A stretch of 64,000 bases of DNA from Saccharofermentans sp. (GTDB taxonomy: Bacteria > Bacillota > Clostridia > Saccharofermentanales > Saccharofermentanaceae): NCBI GenBank assembly GCA_024688685.1, contig JAILDX010000036.1, forward strand, positions 50,513 to 114,512. The letters run 5' to 3'. The notes beneath the pieces are model-generated. The model was given only the letters and a program-made list of their open reading frames with translations. It was not told the origin of the DNA and made no database searches. A program made the translations under genes and the position numbers. Below are positions 48,276 to 63,630 of the stretch, one piece after another. Each line of letters begins with the position of its first letter. Positions within the stretch are counted from its first letter, which is position 1.

Positions 48276-48297
48276 TTATAAGCAAGAGGGTTTATAT

Positions 48298-48402
48298 ATG
48301 AATGAATATGTTGAATTAGAGATAAAGGTTATATATTTCGACAGCGAAGACGTTATTACAGATAGCCAGTGTCCCGGTCTGACTCCTTGGGATAATCAGT
48401 AA
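48298..48402 (+). CDS. short peptide (34 aa) with SEDVITDSQC motif
   Basis: ATG at 48298 follows AGAGGG by eight bases. The product begins MNEYVELEIKVIYFDSEDV and continues ITDSQCPGLTPWDNQ. It resembles the many ~40-60-residue clostridial peptides whose conserved part reads roughly F-[DE]-x-E-D-V-I-x-[TA]-S before a variable Cys/Gly-rich end; their function is unknown, and some are suspected secreted or modified peptides. One cysteine. It lies directly after the secreted protein and could share its transcript. Confidence 0.5.
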   Translation: MNEYVELEIKVIYFDSEDVITDSQCPGLTPWDNQ

Positions 48403-48412
48403 TAATCTCTGA

Positions 48413-48841: not shown

Positions 48842-48865
48842 TTCATGAACGCAGGGGGGGTAAGC

Positions 48866-50044
48866 ATGGGTTTATTTGATAAGTTCAAGACCGGTAAGAA
48901 AAGCGGTTTGGTGAATCCCGGAACAAAGACTTTTAAGGACTATCCGCATTGTGAGAGCCCTTTTCGCCAAAGGGTTGAGTTATGCTGGAAACAGTTTGTT
49001 AAGGAAGAGTCAGTTCTCAGGGGATTGATCGATGCAAAGGCGGGCCCTGATCAGATATCTGAGGAACTTCATAAGTTGTTGTCTCCGGCGTTTGCCCGTA
49101 CGTATGCCGAGGTTGGCCGCAATGGTGATAAATATGATCTGATACTGAATCTTGAAGGGGATTGGGCAAAACTGTTCTCGAGGGCTTATTTCAAGAGCAA
49201 AGCCCCAAAGGAAGTTCTGGAACATTGGAACATAATAGTCGGCAGGCAGTCTAACGGTCAGGCAATAGATAACTTTAAGATCGTAATGGAGGAGGACTCC
49301 GTCTGTGCTTCTGATATCAGTTTATGGACTGACTGGGAGAACGGCTGCGTCAGGATTTCGGTTTATTGTGAGGAGATGAGACCGATAATAGAAGGGAATA
49401 TCAACGCGGCATACAATCTTCTCTATATCCTGTTGGATCAGACTGTAGGCGAGCTTGCTGAGATGAAATATATTGCTGATCTCAGGTTTATAGATCAGCC
49501 TTTGGACAGGCCGGTTGTCAGTCTTAAGGATCTTATGGATAATTTCGTTTCCAATCTTAAGATGACAAAAGAGCTGCTGCTTGATGCGGACAGGTATATC
49601 GATCTGTACAGTGCATACCGAATGAATCCGGATCCCGGATCAAAAGACGGAACGCGCGGAGATATCATATCCGGATCTACATGTTTTCTCCCGCTTATGA
49701 ACGATTATTATGGCGACAGGTCAAATATTATGGATTCGCTGCAGGAAGACGGAATCCTGGCAGGATTTCTTTTTTATCCGCTCGATACTGTAGAAAGTGA
49801 TTCGAGGGGTACGCAGATACTTGACCTCAGGGATGCGATTACGAGCGAACTGGAACAGGCATTACCTGATTCCTTTATGTTTGTTGGCGGTGCGACAGGT
49901 GTTAATCTCGGATACATAGATTTTATTGCGTGGGATTTTCGTGACATTTTGGACAAGGTTCCCGGGATTGCAGAAAAGCACGGGTTAAGTTGGATCTCTT
50001 TCCGCAGCTTTAAAAGAGATTCAGAGAGTTATACAGCAGTTTAA
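48866..50044 (+). CDS. hypothetical protein, 392 aa
   Basis: Starts MGLFDKFKTGKKSGLVNPG at 48866 behind the run AGGGGGGG; an upstream ATG at 48845 would put that site inside the gene and is less likely. Soluble, mixed alpha/beta, no signal peptide or membrane helix. Two visible sections: an N-terminal ~230 residues (ISEELHKLLSPAFARTYAEV, LILNLEGDWAKLF) and a C-terminal ~150 residues with FVGGATGVNLGYIDFIAWD. I do not recognise the family. Proteins beginning MGLFDKFK are often small cytoplasmic proteins of secretion or immunity loci, which is only a hint. Confidence 0.55.
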   Translation: MGLFDKFKTGKKSGLVNPGTKTFKDYPHCESPFRQRVELCWKQFVKEESVLRGLIDAKAGPDQISEELHKLLSPAFARTYAEVGRNGDKYDLILNLEGDWAKLFSRAYFKSKAPKEVLEHWNIIVGRQSNGQAIDNFKIVMEEDSVCASDISLWTDWENGCVRISVYCEEMRPIIEGNINAAYNLLYILLDQTVGELAEMKYIADLRFIDQPLDRPVVSLKDLMDNFVSNLKMTKELLLDADRYIDLYSAYRMNPDPGSKDGTRGDIISGSTCFLPLMNDYYGDRSNIMDSLQEDGILAGFLFYPLDTVESDSRGTQILDLRDAITSELEQALPDSFMFVGGATGVNLGYIDFIAWDFRDILDKVPGIAEKHGLSWISFRSFKRDSESYTAV

Positions 50045-50221
50045 TCAACACAATCCTTTTATTCTGTTGCTTATTCAACATATCAGACCGATATTATTGA
50101 TTGTCTGTTCTCTGCTTGATTGGGATAATCCAATCGTTAATACGAGAAGGAAATGGAGACAGGAAATTGGTTAACGTTGAAATGGATAAGATCACATTAG
50201 GAAAGACAGCAGGCGGTAATG

Positions 50222-50326
50222 ATGTCACACACCGAGTATATGTGTACCAAGTGCGGAGAGGTTTGGACACGCAAAGAAAAGGTCAGTTGAACTAAATGTG
50301 CCGGTAATGTATATTTTGCATTATGA
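50222..50326 (+). pseudogene. zinc-ribbon gene interrupted by TGA at a cysteine position
   Basis: From ATG 50222 the frame reads MSHTEYMCTKCGEVWTRKEK, then VS, a TGA at 50288-50290, and TKCAGNVYFAL to a TGA at 50324-50326. If the internal TGA were TGT or TGC the product would carry the matched pairs CTKC and CTKC of a zinc ribbon. The final TGA overlaps the next start as ATGA, typical of a real coupled gene. Explanations: single-base decay, a sequencing error, or readthrough. The surrounding gap 50045-50321 contains no other gene I believe. Confidence 0.55.
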
Positions 50327-50904
50327 ACGACAGACCGTTGCTTAACAAAGACCTGAGCGGAGAGACATTCCGCAAGTGGTACTGGCTCAAAGAAGAGCTG
50401 GTTGATTTCTGCCGGGCGAATGAGATCCCGGCAACAGGATCAAAGACTGAGATAAGTGACAGGATCTCATACTATCTGGATACAGGTAAGGTCCTGAGCA
50501 TATCAAAAACAAAGCGTGTGTCTGCAAAGGTCACGTCACTGTCTTTGGACAGCATCATAGAACCTGATATTGTATGCTCAGAGGTTCACCGCGCATTCTT
50601 TAAGGAACAGATCGGTGAGAAGTTCTCTTTTAACGTTGCCTTTCAGAAATGGCTGAAGGCGAATGCCGGAAGAACATATCGTGACGCCGTAGAGGCTTAT
50701 TATTTGATCCTTGAAGAGACGAAAAAAGGCAGGTCTGCTATCGATAAGCAGTTCGAGTACAATACCTATATAAGGGATTTCTTTGAAGACAACAAGGGAC
50801 TCACACTTGATGATGCAATTAAGTGCTGGAAATACAAAAAGAGTTCTCCCGGTCATAACAGATATGAGAGATCTGATTTGACAGTTCTAAAAAGGAATAA
50901 GTGA
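50323..50904 (+). CDS. SAP-domain protein, DUF6434-like
   Basis: 193 residues. The N-terminal ~60 residues form a SAP helix pair: YWLKEELVDFCRANEIPATG followed by SKTEISDRISYYLDTGK, a DNA/RNA-binding motif. The C-terminal part (about 90-190: FNVAFQKWLKANAGRTYRDA, then LDDAIKCWKYKKS) resembles the DUF6434 domain found after SAP in clostridia. Basic C-terminus (ERSDLTVLKRNK). Starts inside the stop of the interrupted zinc-ribbon frame. Confidence 0.7.
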   Translation: MNDRPLLNKDLSGETFRKWYWLKEELVDFCRANEIPATGSKTEISDRISYYLDTGKVLSISKTKRVSAKVTSLSLDSIIEPDIVCSEVHRAFFKEQIGEKFSFNVAFQKWLKANAGRTYRDAVEAYYLILEETKKGRSAIDKQFEYNTYIRDFFEDNKGLTLDDAIKCWKYKKSSPGHNRYERSDLTVLKRNK

Positions 50905-50910
50905 TATAAT
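50902..50910 (+). promoter_or_regulatory. extended -10 promoter of the diguanylate cyclase gene
   Basis: TGATATAAT with the TGn extension; a perfect TTGACA lies 21 bases upstream of the -10 (50878-50883), too far for standard spacing. Start codon of the cyclase is 37 bases downstream. Confidence 0.45.
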
Positions 50911-50947
50911 GACTTTATTATAGTTATGAGACTGCAGGATTGGAAAT

Positions 50948-52723
50948 ATGAAGAAATCCAGATCTTTCTTTTTATCGATAAGCACCAAGATGATGCTCCT
51001 GATCGTGATCGGAACCTTTGTGCTTGCCGTAACACTTGTGATAATCAGTGTTGTTCTGACCGGCAGAATACTTACAAAAGGTGCTGCAACCCAGATGAAT
51101 CTGTTCTGCGAGGAGCGTGCTGACGACCTCGATACGGAGCTTTTAAGGATCGAAGATGCGGTTGGATCCCTTTCGAGATGGACAAGAAGCAAGATCCCGG
51201 ATGTTGAGACGATTACAAATGATGCAGATCTGCGTGATACGATCGTCGATGACGCAGATGATCTTATTCTCTTTATGACGGAGCATAACGATACTATTCA
51301 GGGGGCTTATATACATTACACTCTTGATATTACCGGTATTACCAGTCGTGAAGAAGGTGTTTATTATACGAGAGGTGACGACGGAAAGTATACGACAATA
51401 CCTTTTGCACAGGATGAGATCGAGAGTGATCCGGTAGCTGATTACTGGTATTACGCACCTATCAGCAACAAGGATGCACTATGGACAAAACCATATTTCG
51501 ACGGCAGTGTGGATGATTATGTGATCTCATATGTTGAACCTGTCTATATTGATGATACGCCGGTCGCGATCATCGGAATCGACATCAGTTTTTCAAGGCT
51601 TCTTGAATGGGTCGATTCGCTCAAATATCATGAGACTGGGTATATGTACCTCAAGGAAAGTGACGGAAGTGCACACTATCACTATAATGCTCTCGGACAG
51701 AAGCATTTTCACAGCGATGAGGAAGATCATATCATTGAGAATGAAGAACTCATGTCACAGGCTTCGACTGGCGAGAAGCTTATCAGATATATTTACGAAG
51801 GTCGTGACCGGGTTATGGCATTTGTAACTCTCAGGAACGGTATGAAGTTCGTTCTTTGTGATGGTTATGACAAATTTTACAGCGAGAGGAACAATGCGAT
51901 CATCGTCATGTCATCCCTGTCGGCCGGTCTTTCTATTATCCTGGCGGTAGTTGCTGCGATCATGGCATCGCGTATAACCGATCCTCTGAGAAAACTCACT
52001 GCGGCGGCAAACGAGATCAGTGAAGGGGATTATGATGTAATACTTCCTCCTGAACATCACGATGAGGTTGGTGAGCTTTCGAGAGCTTTCAGAATAGCGA
52101 TCGACAATATCCGTGCGAGAACGGAGGATATCGAGGCAAGAGTCAGGGCTCAGGATCAGAAGATCGAGACAGATGCACAGACTATGAAGAAACAGGAAGA
52201 TGACCTTGTTGCCATGAAGAATCTTGCATATATCGACTCTCTGACTAATGTAAAGAGTAAACATGCATATGAGGATACGGTTAAGTACATCGGCGAACAG
52301 ATAAAGAACGGAACTGCAGAGTTTGCGGTCATTATGTGTGATCTTAATTATCTTAAGCTGATCAATGATACGCTCGGACATAAAGCCGGTGACATAGCTA
52401 TACAAAGGGCAGCAAAGTTACTTTGTAAAGCATTCCCGATGAGTACAGTATTCAGGATAGGCGGCGACGAGTTCGTGGTCATTCCATCGTTGATCGAATA
52501 CGCCGAACTCGAGGAGAAACTAGATCTTCTTAGGGCGGTCCTTAAAGAAGAGAGGGATGCTTCGGACAGTATCCTTGAGCGTGTTTCGCTGGCATTCGGG
52601 TGCGCTGTCTTTGACCGCTCGAGAGATCATTCATACCAGGAAGTCTTTGAACGTGCAGACAAGATCATGTATGAGGAGAAGAAAAAACTGCACGAGATCG
52701 ACGGTATTACGACTGACAGATAA
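50948..52723 (+). CDS. membrane diguanylate cyclase (Cache-HAMP-GGDEF)
   Basis: 591 residues. Transmembrane helix at about 14-37; extracytoplasmic Cache-like sensor (about 40-310) with DDYVISYVEPVYIDDTPVAI, typical of double-Cache domains; second helix about 315-340; HAMP about 341-393; short coiled coil; GGDEF domain from about 425 with IGGDEFV (GGDEF at 505-509). The active-site motif is intact, so it probably makes c-di-GMP from GTP. The position of the inhibitory RxxD site before GGDEF reads PMSTVFR and lacks it, so product feedback inhibition is unlikely. The ligand of the sensor is unknown. Confidence 0.9.
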   Translation: MKKSRSFFLSISTKMMLLIVIGTFVLAVTLVIISVVLTGRILTKGAATQMNLFCEERADDLDTELLRIEDAVGSLSRWTRSKIPDVETITNDADLRDTIVDDADDLILFMTEHNDTIQGAYIHYTLDITGITSREEGVYYTRGDDGKYTTIPFAQDEIESDPVADYWYYAPISNKDALWTKPYFDGSVDDYVISYVEPVYIDDTPVAIIGIDISFSRLLEWVDSLKYHETGYMYLKESDGSAHYHYNALGQKHFHSDEEDHIIENEELMSQASTGEKLIRYIYEGRDRVMAFVTLRNGMKFVLCDGYDKFYSERNNAIIVMSSLSAGLSIILAVVAAIMASRITDPLRKLTAAANEISEGDYDVILPPEHHDEVGELSRAFRIAIDNIRARTEDIEARVRAQDQKIETDAQTMKKQEDDLVAMKNLAYIDSLTNVKSKHAYEDTVKYIGEQIKNGTAEFAVIMCDLNYLKLINDTLGHKAGDIAIQRAAKLLCKAFPMSTVFRIGGDEFVVIPSLIEYAELEEKLDLLRAVLKEERDASDSILERVSLAFGCAVFDRSRDHSYQEVFERADKIMYEEKKKLHEIDGITTDR

Positions 52724-52742
52724 GTAATAGGAAGATAGAACT

Positions 52743-53144
52743 GTGACAAACGACATTGATAAGAAAACTCTTGATGAAGAACCTCAGCTTGACGAATTAA
52801 AAGAGGCTGCAGGCGGCAGATATCTTACAGGGAACGAACTCTACGGTTATTTCGAGATCGACACATGGATATAGTGTAAGCGTAAAGATCTGCTTAGCAG
52901 ATGCAGAAAGGCTGAAGCAGAAAAGCTTAGTAACGCGCTTAATGATGCTTTTGGACAATGGAAAACTTATGTTAAGGGTCTTCCTGAAGGTTAAGCGGAA
53001 GTTGATTTCAACCGTAATTTTACTCTGGAAACGGATAAAGCAGATATAGCAAGGGAAAGTGACAAGCCGAGATATTGGAAATCATTTATTTCTCAGATAG
53101 GAGATGAGGTGTATTCGGACGGATATATCTTCAGATTCTATTAG
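52743..53144 (+). pseudogene. decayed ORF with two in-frame stop codons
   Basis: One frame from GTG 52743 runs 133 codons to TAG 53142 with internal stops TAG (52872-52874) and TAA (52992-52994). Segments read MTNDIDKKTLDEEPQLDELK, GRYLTGNELYGYFEIDTWI, then CKRKDLLSRCRKAEAEKLSN and PRYWKSFISQIGDEVYSDGY. The coherent amino-acid composition across both stops indicates a former gene killed by point mutations. No known family. It lies between the cyclase and a lipoprotein gene. Confidence 0.6.
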
Positions 53145-53227
53145 AATGCATGATTATTGAAGTGTTTGACAATGAGTTGTATACTTGCAAAGGTTTCATT
53201 CAGGATCAAAAAAAAGAGGAGAGAAAA

Positions 53228-54031
53228 ATGAAAAAGACAAAGATTTGCGCACTTGCTTTAAGTGCATGCATGGTTCTCACAGTTTTCGCAGGCTGTGATA
53301 CAACAAAGGAAACAAGCGAGTCAACAGAGACTTCTGAAAGCAGCTCTGAGGTTACAGATGAGTCAACAGAGGAATCCCAGGAGACTGAGGCGTCCCAGGA
53401 GACGGATGAGTCTGAAGAAAGAGAGATAGAAATCGATCAGGAATATGCTAATACTTTCATCAGCAAGTTCGCTGAGCAGTCATTTGGAACCTATGATGGT
53501 ACTCCCATCATTCCTGAGCAGCTTCTGAGATACGTTCATCTTTACCTGAAGCTGAACGACCATGAGTCTATCCACTATGCTGACAAGGGTGATCTTACTT
53601 ACGAGACATTCGATATGGATACAGCAAATGATGTTATCCTTAACACTTTTGGCTACAATTTTACTGAAGCTGACGTATCAGATCTTCCTAAGCCTCCTAC
53701 GTCCTTTGATGCTTCCGTAGCAGGCGGTGTTTTCTTTGAAGATGATAAGATCTGGTATATTGCTGCTGACGGTGAGACATATAATACAATTGCTGTTGTT
53801 GATTCAGCTTCAGCAAATGATTCAAAGGGTACTGTTACACTGAACTTTACTATCTATGAGATCGATTTTGATGCATATTCAGCTATGGATATCGACGGTA
53901 TAGTTAAGTATTACAGAATGACTCCTGATGAGGCAGCAAATGACAGCACACTTCACAAGATCAAGACCGGTACAGCTGAGGTGGATATTGCTCAATCCGG
54001 TGATTATATCCTGCTTGCATACAACGTGTAA
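53228..54031 (+). CDS. lipoprotein with Ser/Thr/Glu-rich linker
   Basis: 267 residues from MKKTKICALALSACMVLTVF (start behind GAGGAGAG; the longer frame from 53150 is rejected). Lipobox FAGC. A low-complexity acidic linker of S, T and E repeats spans about 27-75, after which a compact domain of ~190 residues follows (QEYANTFISKFAEQSFGTYD). Unknown function; the layout fits a surface-tethered domain on a flexible stalk. Confidence 0.7.
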   Translation: MKKTKICALALSACMVLTVFAGCDTTKETSESTETSESSSEVTDESTEESQETEASQETDESEEREIEIDQEYANTFISKFAEQSFGTYDGTPIIPEQLLRYVHLYLKLNDHESIHYADKGDLTYETFDMDTANDVILNTFGYNFTEADVSDLPKPPTSFDASVAGGVFFEDDKIWYIAADGETYNTIAVVDSASANDSKGTVTLNFTIYEIDFDAYSAMDIDGIVKYYRMTPDEAANDSTLHKIKTGTAEVDIAQSGDYILLAYNV

Positions 54032-54067
54032 TCCGGTAGTATAATCTGATCAATATAAATATCTATG

Positions 54068-54109
54068 TTAAGACCGGGAGCTCTTATCATTAAGAGCGAC
54101 CGGTCTTAA
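54068..54109. terminator. long two-part hairpin with a tandem GA internal loop
   Basis: TTAAGACCGG (54068-54077) pairs with CCGGTCTTAA (54100-54109); inside, GCTCTTA pairs with TAAGAGC around a TCAT loop; the two stems are joined by GA opposite GA. The following bases are only moderately T-rich (TATTATT). Probably the terminator of the lipoprotein gene, or a structured element. Confidence 0.6.
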
Positions 54110-54135
54110 TATTATTCAGGAGTTGTGTAAGAAAT

Positions 54136-54267
54136 ATGAATAGAAGTTGTATTCTGCGTCCCACATCTGTTGTTCTGTCTTTGGTTTTCATACTGAATGG
54201 GGAAATTGTTGAAGAGGACGATATTATCTATATGACAAACTGCGCCGCGACTTTTGACGAGATATAA
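54136..54267 (+). CDS. short peptide (43 aa) with EEDDIIYMTNC motif
   Basis: ATG 54136, 13 bases after an AGGAG (a long spacing). The product starts MNRSCILRPTSVVLSLVFIL, a hydrophobic stretch, then NGEIVEEDDIIYMTNCAATF and DEI. The motif acidic-D-[VI]-I-x-x-x-[NQ]-C resembles that of the 34-residue peptide at 48298. Real coding status is uncertain. Confidence 0.3.
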   Translation: MNRSCILRPTSVVLSLVFILNGEIVEEDDIIYMTNCAATFDEI

Positions 54268-54297
54268 AACAAAACGGCAGGAATTGATCCTGCCGTT
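54264..54297 (-). terminator. terminator of the DUF4003 gene
   Basis: On the minus strand ACGGCAGGA-TCAAT-TCCTGCCGT is a perfect 9-bp stem followed by TTTGTTTTA, a good intrinsic terminator 23 bases after the DUF4003 stop codon. Confidence 0.85.
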
Positions 54298-54319
54298 GCC
54301 GTTATATTGATCAGCAGTA

Positions 54320-55309
54320 TCAGGTTGATGCAGCTGCCGCAGATGAAGATGCTGCGCTTATAGAGGCAGAAATGCATGCTATCTCAATAGCAATGACTGT
54401 TGAGATAATGGAGTTGATGACAGCTGTTTTGGCCTTTGTATCGCCACATGTGTATGCATCAAGAACGATCGCACTTGCAATCGTATTGCGTACTCTCTTG
54501 CCGGCACCCAAAGGCCCAAGTCCGCGGAGATTCTTGATCTCGTCACTTAACTTTCCGATCCTCTTGATAACTGTCTTTCTGTCTTCTTCTCTGACCAGCA
54601 TTGCGGTGGCCGCAACAATGGCAAATGCATCGGAATCGAAACGTACTCCCTCGGACTTCAACATCTCGTATGTGCGGCGGATAACATCAGCCTTCTCATC
54701 AGCCGGCATGTCGAAAACAGAAGCCAGACAAGCCATGAACTGAACCTTGTTCGAGCTTAGGAAACGCTTTTTGAGAGCAACGAATGATTCTTCCGTAAGT
54801 GATGTGAGCTTTTCTGCATCTATATCCGACAGAGCCATGATAACGCAGTTTGTAATATCTTCTGATCCTGTTATAAAAGGGTGATCATGACGTATTAGCT
54901 TATAGATCTCGCGGGTCCTCTTGATGTAGAGAGCGTAGTCGCTTTCACGTGCAACCTTGTAGATCATAACGGCTGCCAGTACGAGGTAATCTGAATCAAA
55001 GAACTTGCGGTCGAGCCCCTTGTGGATCTGCTTGATCTTTTCCAAGGTTTGGGAAGGGTCATTGGATTGTGCAAGAGTTGCAACAACAATCTGCCTTGAG
55101 TTGCCTCTCAGAGTTGAGAGAAATCCGGTATTCTTACTTAACAGAGCCTTTGCTTCCTTCATTGCTTCCTCAGAAGTTGGTCTGGTATCGCCGATAAAGG
55201 CTGATGCGCATGCAGCTGCCTCGAGTCCCGAATTAAGGATAAATGCTTTCTTTGCGATCTTATAGTTCTCTTCGAATACTTCAAGATTTAAGTTGATACG
55301 TGTTTCCAT
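54320..55309 (-). CDS. DUF4003 family protein
   Basis: 329 residues, soluble and helical. FILNSGLEAAACASAFIGDT, FLSTLRGNSRQIVVATLAQS and DSDAFAIVAATAMLVREEDR, with repeated helical units, match the DUF4003 pattern; the family has no known activity. The end (from about 305) is an Ala/Ser-rich tail, IEIACISASISAASSSAAAAS. It has its own promoter and a strong terminator. Confidence 0.7.
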   Translation of the reverse strand: METRINLNLEVFEENYKIAKKAFILNSGLEAAACASAFIGDTRPTSEEAMKEAKALLSKNTGFLSTLRGNSRQIVVATLAQSNDPSQTLEKIKQIHKGLDRKFFDSDYLVLAAVMIYKVARESDYALYIKRTREIYKLIRHDHPFITGSEDITNCVIMALSDIDAEKLTSLTEESFVALKKRFLSSNKVQFMACLASVFDMPADEKADVIRRTYEMLKSEGVRFDSDAFAIVAATAMLVREEDRKTVIKRIGKLSDEIKNLRGLGPLGAGKRVRNTIASAIVLDAYTCGDTKAKTAVINSIISTVIAIEIACISASISAASSSAAAAST

Positions 55310-55338
55310 ATTCCTGTCTCCTTTCGTACACAGTTTTG

Positions 55339-55367
55339 ATTATAGTTGTTTTAAGGTGTCATTACAA
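55339..55367 (-). promoter_or_regulatory. promoter of the DUF4003 gene
   Basis: Minus strand TTGTAA (55362-55367), 17-base spacer, perfect TATAAT (55339-55344), about 30 bases before the start at 55309. Confidence 0.6.
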
Positions 55368-55378
55368 TCATGTCTGAA

Positions 55379-55387
55379 TGATATAAT
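55379..55387 (+). promoter_or_regulatory. extended -10 promoter of the EAL remnant/Hpt unit
   Basis: TGATATAAT, back to back with the DUF4003 promoter, 36 bases before the ATG at 55424. Nearly identical to the element before the diguanylate cyclase gene. Confidence 0.4.
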
Positions 55388-55423
55388 GAAAATAGCTGAT
55401 AATAAGGGAGAGAGTTAAACAGT

Positions 55424-55646
55424 ATGGGACACAGGTTTCCGGGTAAGGTAAGAACAAGGCTGATCTCAATCACAGTATGCCTCTGATGAATACCTTGGAG
55501 TACCCATAATAGCTGAAGGTGTTGAGACAGAAGATCAGTATCTTGCACTCAAGAAACTGGGCTGTGCAATAATTCAGGGCTACTACTTCTCAAAGCCGGT
55601 GCCTGATTATGAGTTCGAGAGATTCCTTATAGAGAAGAAGGGTTAA
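55424..55646 (+). pseudogene. EAL phosphodiesterase remnant with internal deletion
   Basis: ATG 55424 gives MGHRFPGKVRTRLISITVCL and a stop, the look of the first residues before a membrane helix. In a second frame, from about 55464 to TAA 55644, comes the end of an EAL domain: DEYLGVPIIAEGVETEDQYL, ALKKLGCAIIQGYYFSKPVP, then EFERFLIEKKG. AEGVET and QGYYFSKP are diagnostic of c-di-GMP phosphodiesterases. The simplest reading is a full membrane GGDEF/EAL protein that lost its middle. Confidence 0.75.
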
Positions 55647-55659
55647 GGAGGACAGGATA

Positions 55660-56001
55660 ATGCTTACAATAGATACTCTTAAGCAGTTCGGCGCAGATTC
55701 TGACGACGGCCTTGCACGCTGTTTGAATAATGAGGCTTTTTATTTCAAGCCAATTGGTAAGGCAGCGGACGATAAGAACTTTGATTCCCTTGAGAAGGCG
55801 ATTGAAGATAATGATCTTGATTCAGCTTTCGAGACCGGTCACTCTCTTAAAGGTGTGCTCGGGAACCTTGCGCTGACGCCGATCTATACGCCTGTATATG
55901 AAATGACAGAGCTTCTCCGTTCCAGAAGAGCGGTTGACTATAGCCCCTATCTTGAAGAGGTTAAGAAGAGAAGGGCAGAACTTAAGGAGATATTATCCTG
56001 A
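55660..56001 (+). CDS. Hpt-domain phosphotransfer protein
   Basis: 113 residues. Helical-bundle pattern with the phospho-accepting histidine in GHSLKGVLGNLAL (His61). Ribosome-binding site AAGGAGG. It follows the EAL remnant; in clostridia such Hpt genes or domains often accompany large GGDEF/EAL or hybrid kinase proteins, so its partner may be lost here. Its end overlaps the convergent PrsW gene by nine bases. Confidence 0.8.
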   Translation: MLTIDTLKQFGADSDDGLARCLNNEAFYFKPIGKAADDKNFDSLEKAIEDNDLDSAFETGHSLKGVLGNLALTPIYTPVYEMTELLRSRRAVDYSPYLEEVKKRRAELKEILS

Positions 56002-56910
56002 TACAGGCCTCTGACAGCCGCAGTTACCGCAGAACTTGTAATATGAGAGTGTTCCGCACTTGGGGCAGTTCCAGGGTTCCTCTATGGGGCGCTGATGACC
56101 GCATTGTGAGCAGAAATTGAAATCGTTTTCTGTGCCGCAGATGCATTTCCATCTGCCCATGACCGCGGGATTATATATAGCCTGCGCTGCGTTTGGAACA
56201 GTTACGATGCAGAAATCATGTTTTGCGGAGTAGATGACAGTTACTACAGAACCGGCAAAGAGGACTATCACATAACCGATCCAGAGCAGTACACTGAATC
56301 CGGTAATAAGGCCGTCATTAGTTGCCCTGCCGCCCATTATTATCGCATCGTAGATCCCATGAAGGACGATAGGAACGATAATCGACAGTGCCGTGTATAA
56401 TGCCTGTTTGTCTTTCTTGTTCGTAAGCTGGGCATACTTTGCTTTGCTGTAGAAGAATCCCATGAATACAGCATCGCACGCATGACCGGGAACAGCGGTG
56501 AACATGCGGAGAAGTGCTGTTCCCATGCCGTTTGTAAAGACATACATAATATTCTCAACAGCGGCAAATCCAAGTGATGCGAATACAGCATATACGATCG
56601 CATCGTAACTGTAATTAAAGTTCTTGTTCTTCCATGTGATGAGCCTGAGCACAGCGAACTTGCCGAGTTCCTCTGCAGGAGCGATGATAAAGAGTGAAAG
56701 AACGATCGCATTAAGCGCTGAGTTGTAAGGGATTATGAAATTTATGGCAATCTGTCCGACTAACTCCGCAATTATCGCGGTTATTACGGTACCCATTCCG
56801 GCAAAGAACAGACCTGCCAGAAGACCCATGGGTTCTTTTTCTTTTTTGTCGTTGAAATAAATGAATGCCAGGAGGGCAAAGACAGGGATCAGGGCTAATG
56901 AAAACAGCAT
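55993..56910 (-). CDS. PrsW-like intramembrane protease with C-terminal zinc ribbons
   Basis: 305 residues. Seven or eight membrane helices carry the PrsW motifs: PAEELGKF (EExxK, Glu80-Lys84), FAAVENIMY (Glu119), PGHACDAVFMG (His143) and LHGIYD (His184). The last ~55 residues are two zinc ribbons: CICGT...CSQC and CPKCGT...CGNCGC. PrsW cleaves anti-sigma factors in Bacillus; the substrate here is unknown. Start ATG follows GGAGCGATAT. Confidence 0.88.
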   Translation of the reverse strand: MLFSLALIPVFALLAFIYFNDKKEKEPMGLLAGLFFAGMGTVITAIIAELVGQIAINFIIPYNSALNAIVLSLFIIAPAEELGKFAVLRLITWKNKNFNYSYDAIVYAVFASLGFAAVENIMYVFTNGMGTALLRMFTAVPGHACDAVFMGFFYSKAKYAQLTNKKDKQALYTALSIIVPIVLHGIYDAIIMGGRATNDGLITGFSVLLWIGYVIVLFAGSVVTVIYSAKHDFCIVTVPNAAQAIYNPAVMGRWKCICGTENDFNFCSQCGHQRPIEEPWNCPKCGTLSYYKFCGNCGCQRPVSG

Positions 56911-57067
56911 ATATCGCTCCTTATATAATTATTTCTTCGACTTCTTCTTTACTGTCGAGACTGCTGACAGATCCGTCTACGATCAGTTCAAATATCAGCT
57001 GTAAAATGAAATCCATTCACAAACCACTTTAATTAATATATTTATTTTAGAACATATTGTACCACAA

Positions 57068-57076
57068 TGGTATAAT
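57068..57076 (+). promoter_or_regulatory. extended -10 promoter of the TIR-S41 cassette
   Basis: TGGTATAAT with the TGn extension and perfect TATAAT (57071-57076). Transcription would start near 57083, which favours the ATG at 57111 over the one at 57090 for the TIR protein. Confidence 0.6.
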
Positions 57077-57110
57077 GTATGTTTGATTAATGTCCTTGTA
57101 TGGAGAATTA

Positions 57111-59453
57111 ATGGAGAATAGCGAGAGATATACTGCTTTTATAAGCTACAGACACTGCAAACCTGACAGTGAGATTGCTGCCGGCCTTCAGAAGAAACTG
57201 GAAAACTACCGTCTTCCAAAGGAAGTGGCAAAGAAAACAGGCAGGAAAGGTCTTGGCCGTGTGTTCAGGGATGATGCGGACCTGTCTGTATCTGACAATC
57301 TTTCTGAGGAGATCGATAAGGCTCTCAGGAATTCTGATTATCTTATAGCTGTATGCTCTCCGGCTTATCTTGAGTCTGTCTGGTGCAGGAAGGAACTGGA
57401 TCATTTTCTGAAGTTTAAAGACAGAAGCCGCATACTTCTCGTTCTTGCCGATGGAGAACCTGAGACGGCCTTCCCTGATGTTTTGTTTTCGGATGGCACG
57501 GAGCCTCTTGCTGCTGACTGCAGGGGAAGTGATGCAAAGGAACGTAAGAATCTCACGGACACAGCTGCGATCCGTCTTGCTGCCGCTATTTGCGGTGTAG
57601 GATACGATGACTTTGTACAGCGTCACAGGAAAGAGCAACAGAGACGTAATATAAGGAGAACTCTAATTGCATTTCTGGTGATGCTGGCTATCCTGATGAT
57701 AAGCGTATATTTCCTCATCAGGATCTCTAGACAGAATGCTATCATTACTCAGAGATATGCGGATACACTTGCAGCAACTTCGGCCAATCTTCTTTCTGAC
57801 GGACGGAGGATCGATGCAGCATATGCTGCCAGACTCGGACTCCCTGATCACAGGACTGATACCTACAGTGAATCAGCGTCAAAGGCTCTGGTAAAAGCAC
57901 TGGGTATATATGATGTTCCCGGATTTGGCTGTGATGAAGATATCAAGCTTCCTTTTTCCGCAAGCTACTACTTTACGGTTTCTCCAACCGGTAAGTATAT
58001 AGGAGTATGTGGCCTCAGTGACGACGCCTATATTATGAATGTCGAGACAAAAGAAGTGAATCCCATAAGTGATAACTCAGTTCTTAAAAGCGGTTTTTTC
58101 GATTCAGACAGAGGTTTTGTATGTATGAAGGGTGATGGAGGATTCCTATATTATGATCTGTCAGATTCTTCTGTGACAGACCTTGGTTTCATCGGTGCAG
58201 ATATCGCTGTTGATACCAAAGGCGCAGGGTATGCATTTATAGATAATGATAAGATCTCGTTCTACAGAGGAACAGATTGTCTGTACGAGTTCCACTATTA
58301 CGACGTTATTGAGAATAACGGGTCGATGTATCGGATCGAGGTTGATTTCAGTTCTGACGGTTCCCGTGCGGTCGTTTACTGTGGCAGTTATTCGGATAAC
58401 AGGTCTTATGTCTTTTCTGTTGATCTCGAGATGCACCGCGTAAGGAATATAAGTCTTACAATAGGCGGATACTATACTCTGTTTGCCTCTGACGACACAG
58501 CATTTGTCTCTTCGGTCATTGACGGTTCTGATGAGTTTATCCTTTTCCAGGATCTCGATTCCAAAAACATGCACTGGTCGAGTGTTATGTTTGAACGTCT
58601 GGCCGGATTAGGTATTCTTGGCGATGACATCGTTGCATATACCGAATATGAGATCTATATCTTTGACCGGGATCTCAGATTTAAGCAGAAGATAATATCA
58701 AGCGGACTCCTTTCGGATATAGAGGTTACGAACGATGGCATCATCATATACGATCAGGGTGGCGGAGTGCATATCATAAAAGATGGAGAATGTACCAGAG
58801 TTCAGCCTGTAATCTCATCCGGTAACAATTATAAGGAGCAGGACTTCAGTAATGGAACACTCTATCTTTTAAGATCGGGAGATAACCATATTTCTACATA
58901 TGCTGAACGTTATTCCGATTATCTGACTCAGTTTGACGGGGAATATACAGAATTGTCTTTGTATGATCATGATTCACCTTATATCACCGGACTTGTCAGT
59001 TCCATCCTGGAACATGAGAATGAATACGATGAAAGCAGGATATATGATGTAATGCCATGTGAGAATGCTGATCTCATATTGGTACAGTTATGGGATGGAA
59101 TTGTTTATATATATGATGCAAATACTTATGAGTGCATCAAGACCGTTTATGCGATTAACGGCATGGTATCATCTTTCTGCTATGATGAAGCACACGATTA
59201 CTATTATATAAGTTCAACAAACCTTGAGGTTTATGATAAAAATTTTAAGAACATATATGAGATTCAGAACTGTTTTCTTTGCGGATTTGATGAATTAACC
59301 GGAAATCCGGTCATCTCAGAACGGAAAGGTATGACTGAATATCATTATCTGGTAAATCCGCTGTCTTATGAGGAGATAATCAGTCTGGCAGATGAAAGTC
59401 TTGAGGGGTATGAGCCTGATGAAAGAGTAAAGGAGGAGTATTCGCTTGAGTAA
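57111..59453 (+). CDS. TIR-domain transmembrane protein with beta-propeller ectodomain
   Basis: 780 residues from MENSERYTAFISYRH. TIR domain about 5-130: YTAFISYRH (box 1), GRVFRDDADLSVSDNL (BB-loop region) and SPAYLESVWCRKEL, whose Glu95 sits where catalytic TIR NADases have their glutamate. One membrane helix near 195-215 (LIAFLVMLAILMISVYFLI). Beyond it ~560 residues of repeating beta strands suggest a WD40/PQQ-like propeller. A linker with LSDGRRIDAAYAARLGLPDH resembles others of this clostridial TIR family. The start at 57111 has GGAGAATTA before it. The stop overlaps the protease gene by eight bases. Function of such membrane TIR proteins is unknown; NAD cleavage or signalling on envelope disturbance is plausible inference. 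Confidence 0.85.
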   Translation: MENSERYTAFISYRHCKPDSEIAAGLQKKLENYRLPKEVAKKTGRKGLGRVFRDDADLSVSDNLSEEIDKALRNSDYLIAVCSPAYLESVWCRKELDHFLKFKDRSRILLVLADGEPETAFPDVLFSDGTEPLAADCRGSDAKERKNLTDTAAIRLAAAICGVGYDDFVQRHRKEQQRRNIRRTLIAFLVMLAILMISVYFLIRISRQNAIITQRYADTLAATSANLLSDGRRIDAAYAARLGLPDHRTDTYSESASKALVKALGIYDVPGFGCDEDIKLPFSASYYFTVSPTGKYIGVCGLSDDAYIMNVETKEVNPISDNSVLKSGFFDSDRGFVCMKGDGGFLYYDLSDSSVTDLGFIGADIAVDTKGAGYAFIDNDKISFYRGTDCLYEFHYYDVIENNGSMYRIEVDFSSDGSRAVVYCGSYSDNRSYVFSVDLEMHRVRNISLTIGGYYTLFASDDTAFVSSVIDGSDEFILFQDLDSKNMHWSSVMFERLAGLGILGDDIVAYTEYEIYIFDRDLRFKQKIISSGLLSDIEVTNDGIIIYDQGGGVHIIKDGECTRVQPVISSGNNYKEQDFSNGTLYLLRSGDNHISTYAERYSDYLTQFDGEYTELSLYDHDSPYITGLVSSILEHENEYDESRIYDVMPCENADLILVQLWDGIVYIYDANTYECIKTVYAINGMVSSFCYDEAHDYYYISSTNLEVYDKNFKNIYEIQNCFLCGFDELTGNPVISERKGMTEYHYLVNPLSYEEIISLADESLEGYEPDERVKEEYSLE

Positions 59454-61173
59454 GGAACACAAACAAAAAAAACCGATGCCGAAATGGTTGAAGATCACAC
59501 TTACGGTTTTCTACTCCTTGGCAGTCTTGATCAACTGGGGAATAATCTTTACTGTTTTTATTCCTCTGTTTAAGGGTATAGCCAATAATCTGTACTTTGA
59601 CTGTAATTTCCCTGCAGAGCATGTGGAGACCGCCCTCACTCAGGAACAAAGACTTAAGGATCTTGACTATATGTATGATATAGTGTGCCTTAAGAATCCC
59701 AGAAAGGAATACTTTGAAGAGGCTTATGGAATATCGTATGATGACTTATATAACAGATACAGGGAATATATTAAATACTCAAAGAGTGACTATGAATTTT
59801 TCTCTTATCTTACCTGCTTCCTTGCGGTGCTTCCGGGACAGCATAACTATATGAGTTTTCCTAAATATGAGTTCAGCAGTGTTAATGGTTTTAATCTGTC
59901 TGATGTATATGGAACACAGGAATTTAACGACTACATCAATTCCTGGATAGATGATTTCCGTGATGATGTTGAAAGATATAGTGAATACTCGCTGATCTGC
60001 TTCCGTTATATTGACGGCCAGTATGTGTCAGTTGCTCTTTCAGCAACTGACAGATCATGCATAGATGACTATGAGCTTGGCAGGCTAATATCTCTGGATG
60101 GTAAGGATCCTGTTGATATGTGTTTTGACTTTTTCGAAAGGTCAGTTCCTGTATATGATAAGGGCAACGATTGCTTCTTCCGCAATGTCCTGCTCTTTAA
60201 TAACGGATCAGGAGTGAGACATACAGCAGAGATACTTATGCCGGATGGTGAGACTGTCACAGTTGATCTGTATGATGATCCTTGTTTCGACGTGTATTAT
60301 ACAGATGGTTACAGTGCATATAAGACTGCAGAAGAACGCCCTGAGGGTGATGAATCCGGTGAGGATGTACCGGCCCCCGACATAATGGATGATGATTATG
60401 TCCCTGCCACATATACTATTGTTACAGATGAAGACAGAGACTTGATATATGTGGAATCCACAAGCTGTGAGACAGACGAGGGAGAGAGACTTGTCAGAGA
60501 TCTCACGCAGGAACTGAACAGAACCGGTATCGACACCATCGTTCTTGATATCCGTAATAACGGAGGCGGTGAGATAGATTTTGTAAGATATCAGTTGCTT
60601 CCTGCATTGTTCAGTCATGATGTACAGTTTAATCCTCAGGTTATCGGAACGAAGAATTCATATACGCGTAATTACTACTTCAGTGCATATAGCAGGCTCA
60701 CTGACATAATCCGTGGGGATGATTTCCCTACAACTGATTCCGAGTGCTTTTATTATACGGAAGATTTCAGTGTCGAAGGAAATGCTGACAGGGATTACAA
60801 GATTTATCTGATAACTTCTACTAACACATTCTCGTCAGGCGACATCATGACCCGTCTTTGCAAGTTGTATGACAATGCTGTTGTTGTCGGTACAAATACC
60901 GAGGGAGAAGGGATCTGCGGTTCCCCGTTCAACTGTTATCTGCCTGAGAGCCGTTTTGCGTTTGTTTATGTTCCTACCGTAAATATCGACAGCGTGGATG
61001 ACAGCATCTATGGTACAGAACCTGATATCTATATTCCGACAACTTATGAGGACTATTGCAGAAGGATAGAACTAAAAAGTGGTGAGATCGATCCGACTTC
61101 TTATGAAGGACGACTTCTGTGGGATCAGACACTGATCTCCATTCTTGATATGATTAATAGCGATGCTGATTAG
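59446..61173 (+). CDS. membrane-anchored S41-family peptidase
   Basis: 575 residues starting at TTG 59446, supported by AGGAGG nine bases upstream. One N-terminal membrane helix (about 15-45), then a ~350-residue N-domain and the S41 catalytic part: IVLDIRNNGGGEIDFVRY, TNTFSSGDIMTRLCKLYD with the nucleophile Ser463, and VVVGTNTEGEGICGSPF. There is no PDZ domain I can see. Faces outside, like the propeller of the TIR partner. Translational overlap with the TIR gene implies a shared function. Confidence 0.88.
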   Translation: MSKEHKQKKPMPKWLKITLTVFYSLAVLINWGIIFTVFIPLFKGIANNLYFDCNFPAEHVETALTQEQRLKDLDYMYDIVCLKNPRKEYFEEAYGISYDDLYNRYREYIKYSKSDYEFFSYLTCFLAVLPGQHNYMSFPKYEFSSVNGFNLSDVYGTQEFNDYINSWIDDFRDDVERYSEYSLICFRYIDGQYVSVALSATDRSCIDDYELGRLISLDGKDPVDMCFDFFERSVPVYDKGNDCFFRNVLLFNNGSGVRHTAEILMPDGETVTVDLYDDPCFDVYYTDGYSAYKTAEERPEGDESGEDVPAPDIMDDDYVPATYTIVTDEDRDLIYVESTSCETDEGERLVRDLTQELNRTGIDTIVLDIRNNGGGEIDFVRYQLLPALFSHDVQFNPQVIGTKNSYTRNYYFSAYSRLTDIIRGDDFPTTDSECFYYTEDFSVEGNADRDYKIYLITSTNTFSSGDIMTRLCKLYDNAVVVGTNTEGEGICGSPFNCYLPESRFAFVYVPTVNIDSVDDSIYGTEPDIYIPTTYEDYCRRIELKSGEIDPTSYEGRLLWDQTLISILDMINSDAD

Positions 61174-61200
61174 TGTATAATTAGGGAAGTGTACAATGCG

Positions 61201-61479
61201 ATGAAAGATAATAAGGTTTGGAAAGGTGTTTTTATTCTTACGTCAGTGCTCCTGGTGGCGTTCCTTGTGTTTGTCGGAGTATCTGCATATAAGAATATCA
61301 ACTATTCCGGCCATTATCCATATCCGACTATCGCCGGCACTGTTAATAACTGGCGGGACGGGACAATTGTAGATGTCGGGATCCTTTTCCCGTTTTATGG
61401 GTTGCCGCTCATAGCAGATATTGTGTATTTTATAATATCGGGTGTTAAGCTCATTAAGAGCAGAAGAGGGAAGAAATGA
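61201..61479 (+). CDS. small membrane protein (92 aa)
   Basis: MKDNKVWKGVFILTSVLLVA begins at ATG 61201; a GTG at 61189 is also possible. Two hydrophobic helices at about 10-30 and 66-84 flank a loop with NYSGHYPYPTIAGTVNNWRD. Basic end SRRGKK faces the cytoplasm. Third gene of the TIR-S41 cassette, with no known family. The stop overlaps the next small gene as ATGA. Confidence 0.6.
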   Translation: MKDNKVWKGVFILTSVLLVAFLVFVGVSAYKNINYSGHYPYPTIAGTVNNWRDGTIVDVGILFPFYGLPLIADIVYFIISGVKLIKSRRGKK

Positions 61480-61622
61480 TCGGCAAACGCATTCGAATGA
61501 CAAACTTCAATGCTGCATATGGTGCTATTCAGGTAGGCCTTGAACAGATCGAGGCAGCGAAGAAGTTCGACGCGATCGACCTTGATGTTCTGAGGAGTGG
61601 CAAAGCAGCCAAGGGTGACTGA
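61476..61622 (+). CDS. small protein (48 aa)
   Basis: MIGKRIRMTNFNAAYGAIQV, then GLEQIEAAKKFDAIDLDVLR and SGKAAKGD. Coupled to the preceding stop (ATGA) and only three bases before the next gene, so it is likely translated. Short, helical and charged; no cysteines, no membrane segment. Function unknown. Confidence 0.5.
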   Translation: MIGKRIRMTNFNAAYGAIQVGLEQIEAAKKFDAIDLDVLRSGKAAKGD

Positions 61623-61625
61623 TGT

Positions 61626-62501
61626 ATGGGAATTTGTACGTGCTGCGGTTATTCCGGTCCTATGACTGAGTACTGTCCTTCCTGCGGCTTTCCGAATAAA
61701 GCTGACACGGGGAGGAAAGACTTAATAGAACATGGCTGGCGTGACGGCAATGGTGAGTTCAATGCCGTTCTTAAGGACGGAAGGTTCATATCCCGGTATA
61801 TTGATGCCGAGTATTCTTTTTCCGGTAACGCACGTATGGGATTCCCGTCTATGATGCAGAAGATCACGCATCCTGATGAAGAGTTCCTTATTTACCCGGA
61901 CGAAGTCTGTTATAAGAAAGACAATCGGAATGAGTATGGTATCTCTAAGCTGTGGTATGGGTCCGGGACTCTCCATATGGATCTGTACAGTTTCGAGAAC
62001 CATAGTCTGTTTACCGTTGACTTTCAGATGGACGACAGTGTTATTGCTGATCTGATCGAACCTGAAGAACCTGTGGGCTGGACATGCTTAAAGTGCGGGA
62101 AGCAGTATCAGACAGATGATTTCTTTTCGGAGTGTGGAGAACCGATCGATAAGATCGTACTGTTTTCATTAAGCAGATACAGTTCGGCAATGCCGCCGCA
62201 GAACGAAGGCGTACGTGTTTTTGAGTTCTCTGAAAAGGAACTTATATGTGAGATCTTAAAGAACGGAAAGGGAAGAAGGTGCTATATTTCATCATGTGTT
62301 ATTGAACCGGCTTATGAGATAATAAAGAAGTATGGTATAGATAAGTGGAAGGAGTATGAGAACATTTCGAGCGGTATGTGTGGCGGAAGTGTTTCCGTCA
62401 GATACAGGGACGGAGATGAGATCGACGGTTCATCTCTTGATCATATGGGAAGTGCCGTAGCCGACGCTTATCATGAGCTCTTTGCTCTCTTCGCAGGATA
62501 A
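61626..62501 (+). CDS. protein with zinc ribbons, unknown function
   Basis: 291 residues. N-terminal zinc ribbon CTCCGYSGPMTEYCPSCG (residues 4-21). A second ribbon near 155-180 reads WTCLKCGKQYQ...FFSECGEP, in which one of four expected cysteines is missing (FFSEC where FxCxxC is usual). The domain between and after has mixed strands and helices (DEFLIYPDEVCYKKD; VIEPAYEIIKKYGIDKWKEY). Not recognised. Part of the TIR-S41 cassette by spacing. Confidence 0.6.
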   Translation: MGICTCCGYSGPMTEYCPSCGFPNKADTGRKDLIEHGWRDGNGEFNAVLKDGRFISRYIDAEYSFSGNARMGFPSMMQKITHPDEEFLIYPDEVCYKKDNRNEYGISKLWYGSGTLHMDLYSFENHSLFTVDFQMDDSVIADLIEPEEPVGWTCLKCGKQYQTDDFFSECGEPIDKIVLFSLSRYSSAMPPQNEGVRVFEFSEKELICEILKNGKGRRCYISSCVIEPAYEIIKKYGIDKWKEYENISSGMCGGSVSVRYRDGDEIDGSSLDHMGSAVADAYHELFALFAG

Positions 62502-62502
62502 T

Positions 62503-63084
62503 ATGACGTATCAGACAGTGCCTTACAGATATGGAGACGAGATCTTCGCCATCGAGACAGACAGACTGCGGTTATCTGTTTACCGCAGGAGTGCATATAA
62601 GAAGGTTACTGACTATCTCGTTCGGAACAGGGACTTCCACAAACAGTTCTCTCAGCCGCAGCCGGACACGTATTTCACATATGCTGCACAGAAAGAGTAC
62701 CTCGATTGTGATCTGAGATCCTACAGAAGAGGCAATCTTGTCCCTCTGTGGATCACGCTTAAAGAGGATAACAGCAAGATAATAGGAAGGGTATCACTGT
62801 TTAATATTGCAAGAGGAGGCATGATGCTTGCCCAGCTCGGTTACCATATGGATAAGGAGTACACGGGGCAGGGAATCATGACTGAGGCTGTGAACGCCGC
62901 ATGCGAACTGATGTTTGAGGTAATGCAGCTTCACAGAATAGAGGCTTTTATCCTTCCGGAAAACCTCAAGAGCATAGCTCTTATCAAGAGATGCGGCTTT
63001 GAATATGAGGGTACAAGATACTCATATATGAACATAAACGGAAAGTTCAGGGATCATACGGTGTATTACAGGCTCAGACCCTGA
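62503..63084 (+). CDS. GNAT acetyltransferase, RimJ/RimL-like
   Basis: 193 residues from MTYQTVPYRYGDEIFAIETD. GNAT core: TDRLRLSVYRRSAYKKVTDY at the start, acetyl-CoA-binding loop DKEYTGQGIMTEAV and FILPENLKSIALIKRCGFEY. These are features of RimJ-type N-acetyltransferases, whose substrates range from ribosomal proteins to small molecules. One base after the zinc-ribbon gene; last gene of the cassette. Confidence 0.85.
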   Translation: MTYQTVPYRYGDEIFAIETDRLRLSVYRRSAYKKVTDYLVRNRDFHKQFSQPQPDTYFTYAAQKEYLDCDLRSYRRGNLVPLWITLKEDNSKIIGRVSLFNIARGGMMLAQLGYHMDKEYTGQGIMTEAVNAACELMFEVMQLHRIEAFILPENLKSIALIKRCGFEYEGTRYSYMNINGKFRDHTVYYRLRP

Positions 63085-63098
63085 TCGATATTTTTGCC

Positions 63099-63127
63099 TT
63101 TATTGTCACACAAATAAAATATATAAT
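63099..63127 (+). promoter_or_regulatory. promoter of the SH3 lipoprotein gene
   Basis: TTTATT (63099-63104), 17-base spacer, perfect TATAAT (63122-63127). The -35 match is weak. Confidence 0.4.
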
Positions 63128-63155
63128 AGAGAGCGGAATATGAGATAATCTATTC

Positions 63156-63171
63156 AGATAATGAATTATCT
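63156..63171. promoter_or_regulatory. palindrome in the SH3 lipoprotein leader
   Basis: AGATAAT-GA-ATTATCT, a perfect inverted repeat just before the ribosome-binding site, with a third AGATAAT at 63143-63149. Candidate operator. Confidence 0.3.
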
Positions 63172-63189
63172 TAACGGAGGTGGACGATA

Positions 63190-63630
63190 ATGAAGTCTTT
63201 TGGTTACAGAAAGATAGCAGCATTAGCTTTAACCGGTTCGATGCTCCTTTCCTTGTCAGCGTGCGGCAAGACTGAGGAGACAACTACTTCTTCAACGACT
63301 ACACAGGTAACAATAGCAACGATAACAACTCCTTCAACGACTCAGACGACGATCCCGGTCTATGAGGGACCTCTGGAGACGGCTGATACGACTGAGACAT
63401 CATGGACAGAGACTCCTCTTCAGAACGGATCACTGACACTTTATTCTACAGTTTCTGCAGGTAACTTCCTTCGTGTAAGGAAGGGCCCCAGCGTTGATTA
63501 TGACATTGTTGGTACTCTTACAAGGGGTCAGAGTGTTGTAGTTGTTGCTTCCACAGCTAATGACTGGTATAAGACAGAGGACGGATATTATATTTCCGGA
63601 CAGTACCTTAAGACAACAATGCCTCAGTAA
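63190..63630 (+). CDS. SH3b-domain lipoprotein
   Basis: 146 residues. Signal MKSFGYRKIAALALTGSMLL with lipobox LSAC. A Thr-rich linker (about 27-60) is followed by a bacterial SH3 (SH3_3) domain, GNFLRVRKGPSVDYDIVGTL, VVVVASTANDWYKTEDGYY and ISGQYLK. Such domains usually bind peptidoglycan or cell-wall polymers. Very strong ribosome-binding site ACGGAGGTGG. No enzyme domain, so it may tether or sense the wall. Confidence 0.85.
   Translation: MKSFGYRKIAALALTGSMLLSLSACGKTEETTTSSTTTQVTIATITTPSTTQTTIPVYEGPLETADTTETSWTETPLQNGSLTLYSTVSAGNFLRVRKGPSVDYDIVGTLTRGQSVVVVASTANDWYKTEDGYYISGQYLKTTMPQ

Follow-up and report, generated by a model that had tools for sequence, protein, structure and literature searches.

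To our knowledge, the known bacterial TIR defense proteins (Thoeris, SpbK, and TIR-STING) sense from inside the cell. Here we describe a TIR protein that is predicted to face the outside, encoded in a window (the whole stretch of DNA analyzed, 64,000 nucleotides) from Saccharofermentans sp., a bacterium with kin in the rumen and gut (GenBank assembly GCA_024688685.1, contig JAILDX010000036.1, positions 50,513 to 114,512, forward strand). Its gene heads six open reading frames (ORFs) that are tightly packed on the plus strand between positions 57111 and 63084, and the gene after it encodes a membrane-anchored S41 peptidase. A preliminary description had treated this run as a TIR-S41 cassette. 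The ORF list and the sequence confirm the observation, including the six packed genes and the 8-base overlap between the TIR and S41 genes, and the interpretation was partly supported. The real object of interest is the TIR receptor family together with a DHH phosphoesterase partner, not the cassette.

Toll-like and IL-1 receptors have a single membrane span, a cytoplasmic TIR domain, and a recognition-type domain outside, as set out in part of PMC7075850. The window protein resembles these animal receptors in its predicted single span, inner TIR domain, and outer recognition-type domain. Unlike them, it carries its TIR domain at the N terminus, which reverses the order, and its ectodomain is a predicted propeller, not leucine-rich repeats or Ig domains. 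This likeness is one of architecture and does not imply common descent as receptors. TIR domains make ADP-ribose and cyclic forms, according to parts of PMC7159879 and PMC10022894. The window protein shares TIR_2 and ThsB_TIR matches and a kept glutamate box with the bacterial TIR NADases and signal makers Thoeris ThsB, SpbK, and TIR-STING; unlike these, it has a membrane span and a predicted outer propeller. No ThsA-type effector adjoins the TIR gene among the scanned window proteins: Pfam scans of 15 of them (46845 to 63630; the search did not extend to other parts of the genome) found no SIR2, SLOG, or macro effector. The Thoeris NCBIfam model gave the window TIR protein 21.5 bits against a cutoff of 220. 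Part of Kaur et al. 2020 (PMC7159879) describes propeller-bearing conflict systems of the MoxR-vWA type, centered on an NTPase. TIR and propeller domains are among the parts of those systems as described there; unlike them, the window has no such NTPase among the 15 proteins scanned.

The TIR assignment is based on a TIR_2 (PF13676) score of 57 bits against a cutoff of 28, and the ThsB_TIR model was also over its cutoff. The gene is listed from an ATG at 57090 (787 residues), and the ATG at 57111 (780 residues) is the likely start, since GGAG precedes it and the homologues P0001 to P0004 begin there. The preliminary description had held that the protein keeps the glutamate used by TIR NADases (Glu95 in the 780-residue numbering). 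This was upheld: the candidate glutamate is invariant in 26 aligned TIR rows, and the SxW[CV]xxE box around it is kept in 140 of 140 accessory TIR rows (120 of 456 homologues, among the matches listed, plus 22 loci, with duplicates removed). The box is also present in all 21 loci of a longer, core TIR paralogue (L138 and L181 to L200). Such a box permits NADase activity and does not prove it.

A TIR domain inside and a propeller and protease outside had likewise been proposed, and charge bias agrees with this placement. In all 140 TIR rows, lysine and arginine are more numerous on the N-terminal side of the membrane helix; the same is true of 60 of the 64 S41 rows, the remaining 4 being ties (the S41 rows comprise all 50 homologues and 15 loci, with duplicates removed). 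The structure model of the single TIR protein (predicted local distance difference test, 85.6; predicted template modeling score, 0.66) points the same way, and its matches to PDB folds are dominated by propellers. The protein is predicted to have one span, with the TIR domain in the cytoplasm and the propeller outside, which would be the arrangement of a Toll-like receptor. In the model, residues 172 to 236 form one continuous predicted helix that runs from the membrane into a stalk. Among 139 rows, 138 have linkers that differ in length by whole seven-residue steps (51, 58, 65, 72, and 79 residues in 20, 29, 68, 20, and 1 rows, respectively); the remaining row has 76 residues, and one further row was missed by the pattern.

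The window's family was surveyed across 115 genomes. Accessory TIR relatives, of about 800 residues like the window protein, were present in 34 of these. The core paralogue, with about 1030 residues comprising a TIR domain, a span, and PQQ/WD-like propellers by Pfam scan, was present in 97. Core-type rows are the family matches minus the accessory ones, and some are clipped by contig ends (G035, G078, G016, and G007). The core count omits two 602-codon frames (G027:C2 and C17), the short pieces G027:C8, G081:C10, G002:C159, G016:C10, and G076:C12, and three out-of-family matches (G152, G161, and G162). A DHH-DHHA1 phosphoesterase gene (Pfam DHH, 53.5 bits, and DHHA1, 30.8 bits, both over cutoff; no NCBIfam model over cutoff) is a close neighbor of 84 of 100 core-type copies. 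It lies tail-to-tail with the core gene in 70 cases and upstream on the same strand, 6 to 71 bases away, in 14. The DHH gene was found in 95 of the 97 core genomes and in 5 genomes without a listed core TIR gene; 13 genomes had neither. These data speak for a job shared by the core TIR and DHH proteins, because the same two genes occur in two different arrangements and not in one inherited order. It is possible that they form a pair in which one protein makes a signal and the other erases it. Among the matches listed, the titles and abstract beginnings of open-access PubMed Central (PMC) papers named neither a TIR-DHH nor a TIR-S41 pair. No open-access PMC paper combined "TIR domain" with "DHH phosphoesterase," and "TIR" with "S41 peptidase" yielded only papers that were unrelated by title.

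Accessory TIR genes appear to be mobile. Those of G027, G089, and G063 share 97.5 to 98.3% DNA identity, whereas the core TIR genes of these genomes share 60 to 63% and the DHH genes of G089 and G063, the only pair compared, 74%. Homology between G027 and G089 or G063 extends from 54 bases before the listed start of the G027 gene to 6 to 14 bases past its stop; this unit is about 96% identical, and its flanks are unrelated. Because the accessory copies are nearly identical while the core TIR and DHH genes differ widely, we read this as a recent single-gene transfer between species.

The two halves of the protein also appear to have moved separately. Identity was compared at 4-fold-degenerate sites of unchanged residues in six contrasts (Fisher tests on rounded percentages). 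In accessory genes, the TIR part was less similar than the ectodomain in G106-G102 (60% of 68 sites versus 91% of 245; P = 1.6e-8) and in G112-G098 (67% of 69 versus 89% of 232; P = 5.4e-5). The core genes of G080 and G075 differed in the opposite direction (83% of 76 sites versus 37% of 184; P = 6.7e-12), with 72% of 179 sites identical in the adjoining DHH gene, and the core contrast G089-G075 gave a P value of 0.005. At the protein level, the core TIR part was 91 to 99% identical and the ectodomain 48 to 58% identical in G089-G075, G080-G075, and G034-G019; the gap was smaller in G089-G080 (92 versus 78%) and absent in G019-G020 (98 versus 96%). Mosaic genes were thus found among kin, of the accessory type in genus g5 and of the core type in genus g1. 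Since the TIR and ectodomain halves differ in history at 4-fold sites, we infer that ectodomain exchange in this family has been independent of the TIR domains.

The second gene of the run encodes an S41 peptidase by Pfam (PF03572; 52.7 bits against a cutoff of 24) and by predicted fold. The closest S41 peptidases of known structure are PDB 4ghn, 4l8k, and 8vcb and the CPAF and tricorn folds; unlike these, the window protein has an N-terminal membrane helix and belongs to a family of its own. A PGxHN box containing the candidate catalytic His133 was present in 64 of 64 homologues, and an FSxxD-type pattern at the candidate nucleophile Ser463 was present in 59 of 64. By motif, these residues fit the Ser-His arrangement of S41B/CPAF-like enzymes. 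CtpA/Prc-type S41A peptidases use a Ser-Lys dyad in a GxxTFGKG box. That assignment was rejected, as the corresponding column reads NTxGEG, with Glu488 invariant in 22 rows (compared with the GxxTFGKG motif by eye).

Relatives of the S41 protein at E values below 1e-150 were found in 15 of the 115 genomes, with G087 giving a weak match only. A threshold of 1e-20 or less, applied to 188 genomes of the order, gave 15 with such relatives, none outside the family. Remote kin (24 to 33% identical) from a wider contig search had no TIR gene in the stretch covered. The preliminary description had proposed a check of co-occurrence, and this went against the cassette: both genes were present in only six genomes (G000, G027, G029, G062, G070, and G075), and they were adjacent in two, the window and G027, that is, in 2 of 34 accessory-TIR genomes and 2 of 15 S41 genomes. 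The TIR type thus occurs mostly without the protease, the outcome that the preliminary description had named as refuting its cassette, and adjacency is not kept across relatives. The loci inspected beyond the window comprised 14 S41 loci, including that of G027, and 20 accessory TIR loci; the other 12 accessory-TIR genomes had no S41 relative in the family search. This rare adjacency, together with the scattered relatives of the other genes, rules out a conserved six-gene cassette. The G027 pair has the same gene order and strand as the window pair. Trees built from 41 TIR and 36 S41 rows place the window TIR protein with P0001 to P0004 and P0007 and that of G027 with those of G089, G063, and G075, where other genes adjoin TIR. 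Given these differing tree positions, and with the S41 ATG of G027 placed precisely where the shared TIR unit ends downstream, the two genes of G027 came together in a separate event. As a side observation, P0016 (TIR) and P0124 (S41) both list 16435 as their longest contig, perhaps a third pair.

The reading that we favor, at roughly an even chance of being correct, is that the TIR protein is an envelope receptor whose TIR domain likely makes an NAD-derived signal. The receptor likely senses something outside the cell. A parallel coiled-coil stalk would pair two receptors, and ligand binding or displacement outside would change this pairing and bring the TIR domains into an active assembly. 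The assembled domains would then cleave NAD inside the cell to ADP-ribose or a cyclic form, and the DHH-DHHA1 phosphoesterase of the core paralogue would remove or process the nucleotide product. The S41 protein would be an optional surface peptidase and occasional TIR neighbor; using Ser463 and His133, it may act, in those few genomes that captured it, on the ectodomain or on peptides, and at most it would trim peptides at the surface. In keeping with this reading, the neighbors of S41 in other genomes include signaling genes, among them one for a SpoIIE protein in G040 and those of G025 and G038 described below. Of the envelope sensor proposed earlier, the receptor half has gained support from the heptad stalk, horizontal transfer, the mosaic ectodomains of kin, and the DHH-linked core paralogue, and the S41 protein as a fixed partner has been given up. 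The TIR protein may have a role in defense or stress, and its signaling could end in cell death, phage defense, or a response to competitors. If the receptor reading is true, this would be an outward-facing TIR pathway built on a family-wide TIR protein that exposes its variable domain and is linked to a phosphoesterase, and it would be relevant to the origin of TIR receptors. A wider proposal, which we judge unlikely in full, is that rumen Clostridia have a counterpart of the Toll-like receptors, with swapped, fast-changing ectodomains, one core copy per genome wired to a signal-erasing DHH enzyme, and mobile accessory receptors, the window protein among them, that spread singly and occasionally capture an ectopeptidase that tunes sensing.

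The S41 protein may instead belong to a repertoire for peptide signaling or maturation and have reached the TIR locus on grounds that have nothing to do with TIR itself, for example the promoter. We consider this somewhat unlikely. It would fit the S41 neighbors in G025 and G038, which include a GHKL kinase, a LytTR regulator, and an Rce1-like protease, and the position of the G084 gene behind a pair of small genes whose starts look GG-leader-like by eye and one of which carries a LysM domain, yet no single partner is common to most of the 15 S41 loci. A chance run of accessory genes without shared function, in which the TIR protein serves a structural or scaffolding role and performs no NAD chemistry, is also unlikely. 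Elsewhere, relatives of the TIR, S41, zinc-ribbon, and two-helix proteins sit in varied surroundings, and scans for promoters and terminators gave no sign that the six genes form a unit. Such a run is harder to reconcile with the overlapping TIR-S41 junction, where AAGGAGG, a strong ribosome-binding stretch, lies within the last bases of the TIR gene, nine bases before the TTG start of the S41 gene. Because of this stretch, the two genes are likely cotranslated. The invariable glutamate box and the DHH link of the core paralogue, which suggests nucleotide chemistry, also speak against it.

A true two-protein module, in which cleavage of the ectodomain or of a peptide ligand by S41 switches TIR signaling and which was lost or unlinked in most relatives, seems quite improbable. 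In its favor, the G027 pair recurs from different parts of both trees, its S41 ATG would use the purine-rich stretch of the TIR unit, and one recurrence among the five other genomes with both genes was expected only 0.004 times, assuming 2400 genes per genome. These odds are post hoc, TIR-S41 being one of three pairs tried, and the same calculation made the S41-zinc ribbon (0.008) and S41-PrsW (0.011) pairs about as unexpected. The two genes lie apart or on different contigs in G029, G062, G070, and G075, and only 1 of 23 named S41 loci has a TIR gene (L087, JAFWMQ010000001.1, from a sheep-gut metagenome-assembled genome), with several of the 23 being the same contigs again and some stretches short. 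We take the repeated pairing to hint at a useful combination, without proving a module.

Several results weigh against the receptor reading itself. No DHH gene was found near the window TIR gene, near 21 other accessory TIR loci, or near the S41 loci. The glutamate box is also known in TIR domains without NADase activity, and heptad-sized insertions and deletions can arise from repeat slippage without selection. With regard to mobility, G089 and G075 share 94.1% identity in the DHH gene, 89.1% in the accessory TIR gene, and 68.4% in the core TIR gene, so that DHH is no steady clock; flanking gene families are shared within the G106-G102 and G112-G098 pairs, and G089, G063, and G075 have some bases 3' of the gene in common (by eye), so that movement as a single gene does not hold for all copies. 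Two of the six 4-fold contrasts were not significant (core G089-G080, P = 0.13; accessory G089-G063, P = 0.14), misaligned stretches can depress ectodomain identity, and mosaicism is established for kin only, the close relatives of the window copy having been compared as proteins. PADLOC assigned no system to the window, and tblastn searches of the TIR protein against phages and of the S41 protein against plasmids gave no match and thus no defense context.

Individual PADLOC models did match the TIR protein: a PDC-S66 candidate (3.2e-9, residues 54 to 108), RT-TIR_XII (0.0012), and, weakly, ThsB models (1.6e-4 and 0.038). PHROGs matches to the TIR and to one stretch of the propeller were weak and belonged to families without known function; no PHROGs family matched the remaining four proteins scanned. 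Elsewhere in the same genome, a SEFIR/TIR_2 gene of 170 codons (L139, 2979 to 3491, minus strand) lies beside a DUF2971 gene, possibly a defense locus.

Table 1. Positions of features in the window and, where marked L138, at a second locus of the same genome.
Feature	Position	Strand	Basis or remark
Extended -10 promoter-like element TGGTATAAT	57068..57076	+	By eye, consensus only
TIR-membrane helix-stalk-propeller protein, 780 aa	57111..59453	+	Pfam, alignment, structure model
TIR domain, residues 17-130 of 787	57138..57479	+	Pfam
Candidate NADase glutamate codon, E102 of 787 (E95 of 780)	57393..57395	+	Conserved box
Membrane helix, approximate ends	57657..57725	+	Model and hydrophobicity; predicted continuous with stalk helix
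Stalk after membrane helix	About 57726-57800	+	Heptad-step length variation
Predicted propeller ectodomain, residues 278-755	57921..59354	+	Structure prediction
Membrane-anchored S41 peptidase, TTG start, 575 aa	59446..61173	+	Pfam and predicted fold
Candidate catalytic His133 (PGxHN box)	59842..59844	+	Aligns with GH box of PDB 4l8k
Candidate nucleophile Ser463	60832..60834	+	Invariant in 22 aligned S41 rows
Two-helix membrane protein, 92 aa	61201..61479	+	ORF
48-aa ORF	61476..61622	+	ORF
Zinc-ribbon protein	61626..62501	+	Pfam zinc ribbon only under cutoff
GNAT acetyltransferase	62503..63084	+	1-base gap; alternative start 62473 gives 29-base overlap
PrsW-type intramembrane protease with zinc-ribbon tail	55993..56910	-	Pfam; divergent upstream neighbor, outside cassette
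dCache-HAMP-GGDEF diguanylate cyclase	50948-52723	+	Pfam scan
Core TIR paralogue, own genome	L138 5912-8992	-	Family search
DHH-DHHA1 phosphoesterase gene, own genome	L138 4427-5908	+	Adjoins core TIR

One extended -10 promoter had been proposed for all six genes. The element itself was recognized by eye, and no -35 element accompanies it; a two-hexamer promoter scan does not list it. The scan gave a promoter-like match at 61154 to 61181, and because this match precedes the two-helix gene, a single transcript for all six genes is left open. Promoter-like sites in the region numbered 18, against 21.6 expected by chance. Gene calls in the compared loci were made by a simple longest-ORF method.

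The last four genes of the run are likely passengers. Relatives of the two-helix protein occur in 6 of the 115 genomes, including its own, and in the other five they are never beside TIR or S41. The 48-residue ORF has matches in 2 genomes, including its own. The other match, not beside TIR or S41, is near the end of a 534-residue ORF in G066 (62% over residues 5 to 41), within a frame of 546 codons; since it sits inside a longer ORF, the 48-residue ORF may be the remnant of a longer gene. The GNAT protein (Pfam, 75.8 bits against a cutoff of 25.4) is RimJ-like and under the NCBIfam cutoff (91 versus 190 bits). Zinc-ribbon relatives at E values of 1e-15 or less were found in 25 genomes, and the zinc-ribbon gene is the convergent neighbor of S41 in G015 and G075.

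Upstream, the PrsW-type protease scored 102.4 bits with Pfam against a cutoff of 23.5 and was under the NCBIfam cutoff. A PrsW relative (61%) is the nearest large convergent neighbor of S41 in G029, and both PrsW and zinc-ribbon relatives recur as S41 neighbors in other genomes. No evidence ties the diguanylate cyclase gene to the six-gene run. The PrsW tail contains zinc ribbons that match relatives of the zinc-ribbon protein encoded in the run.

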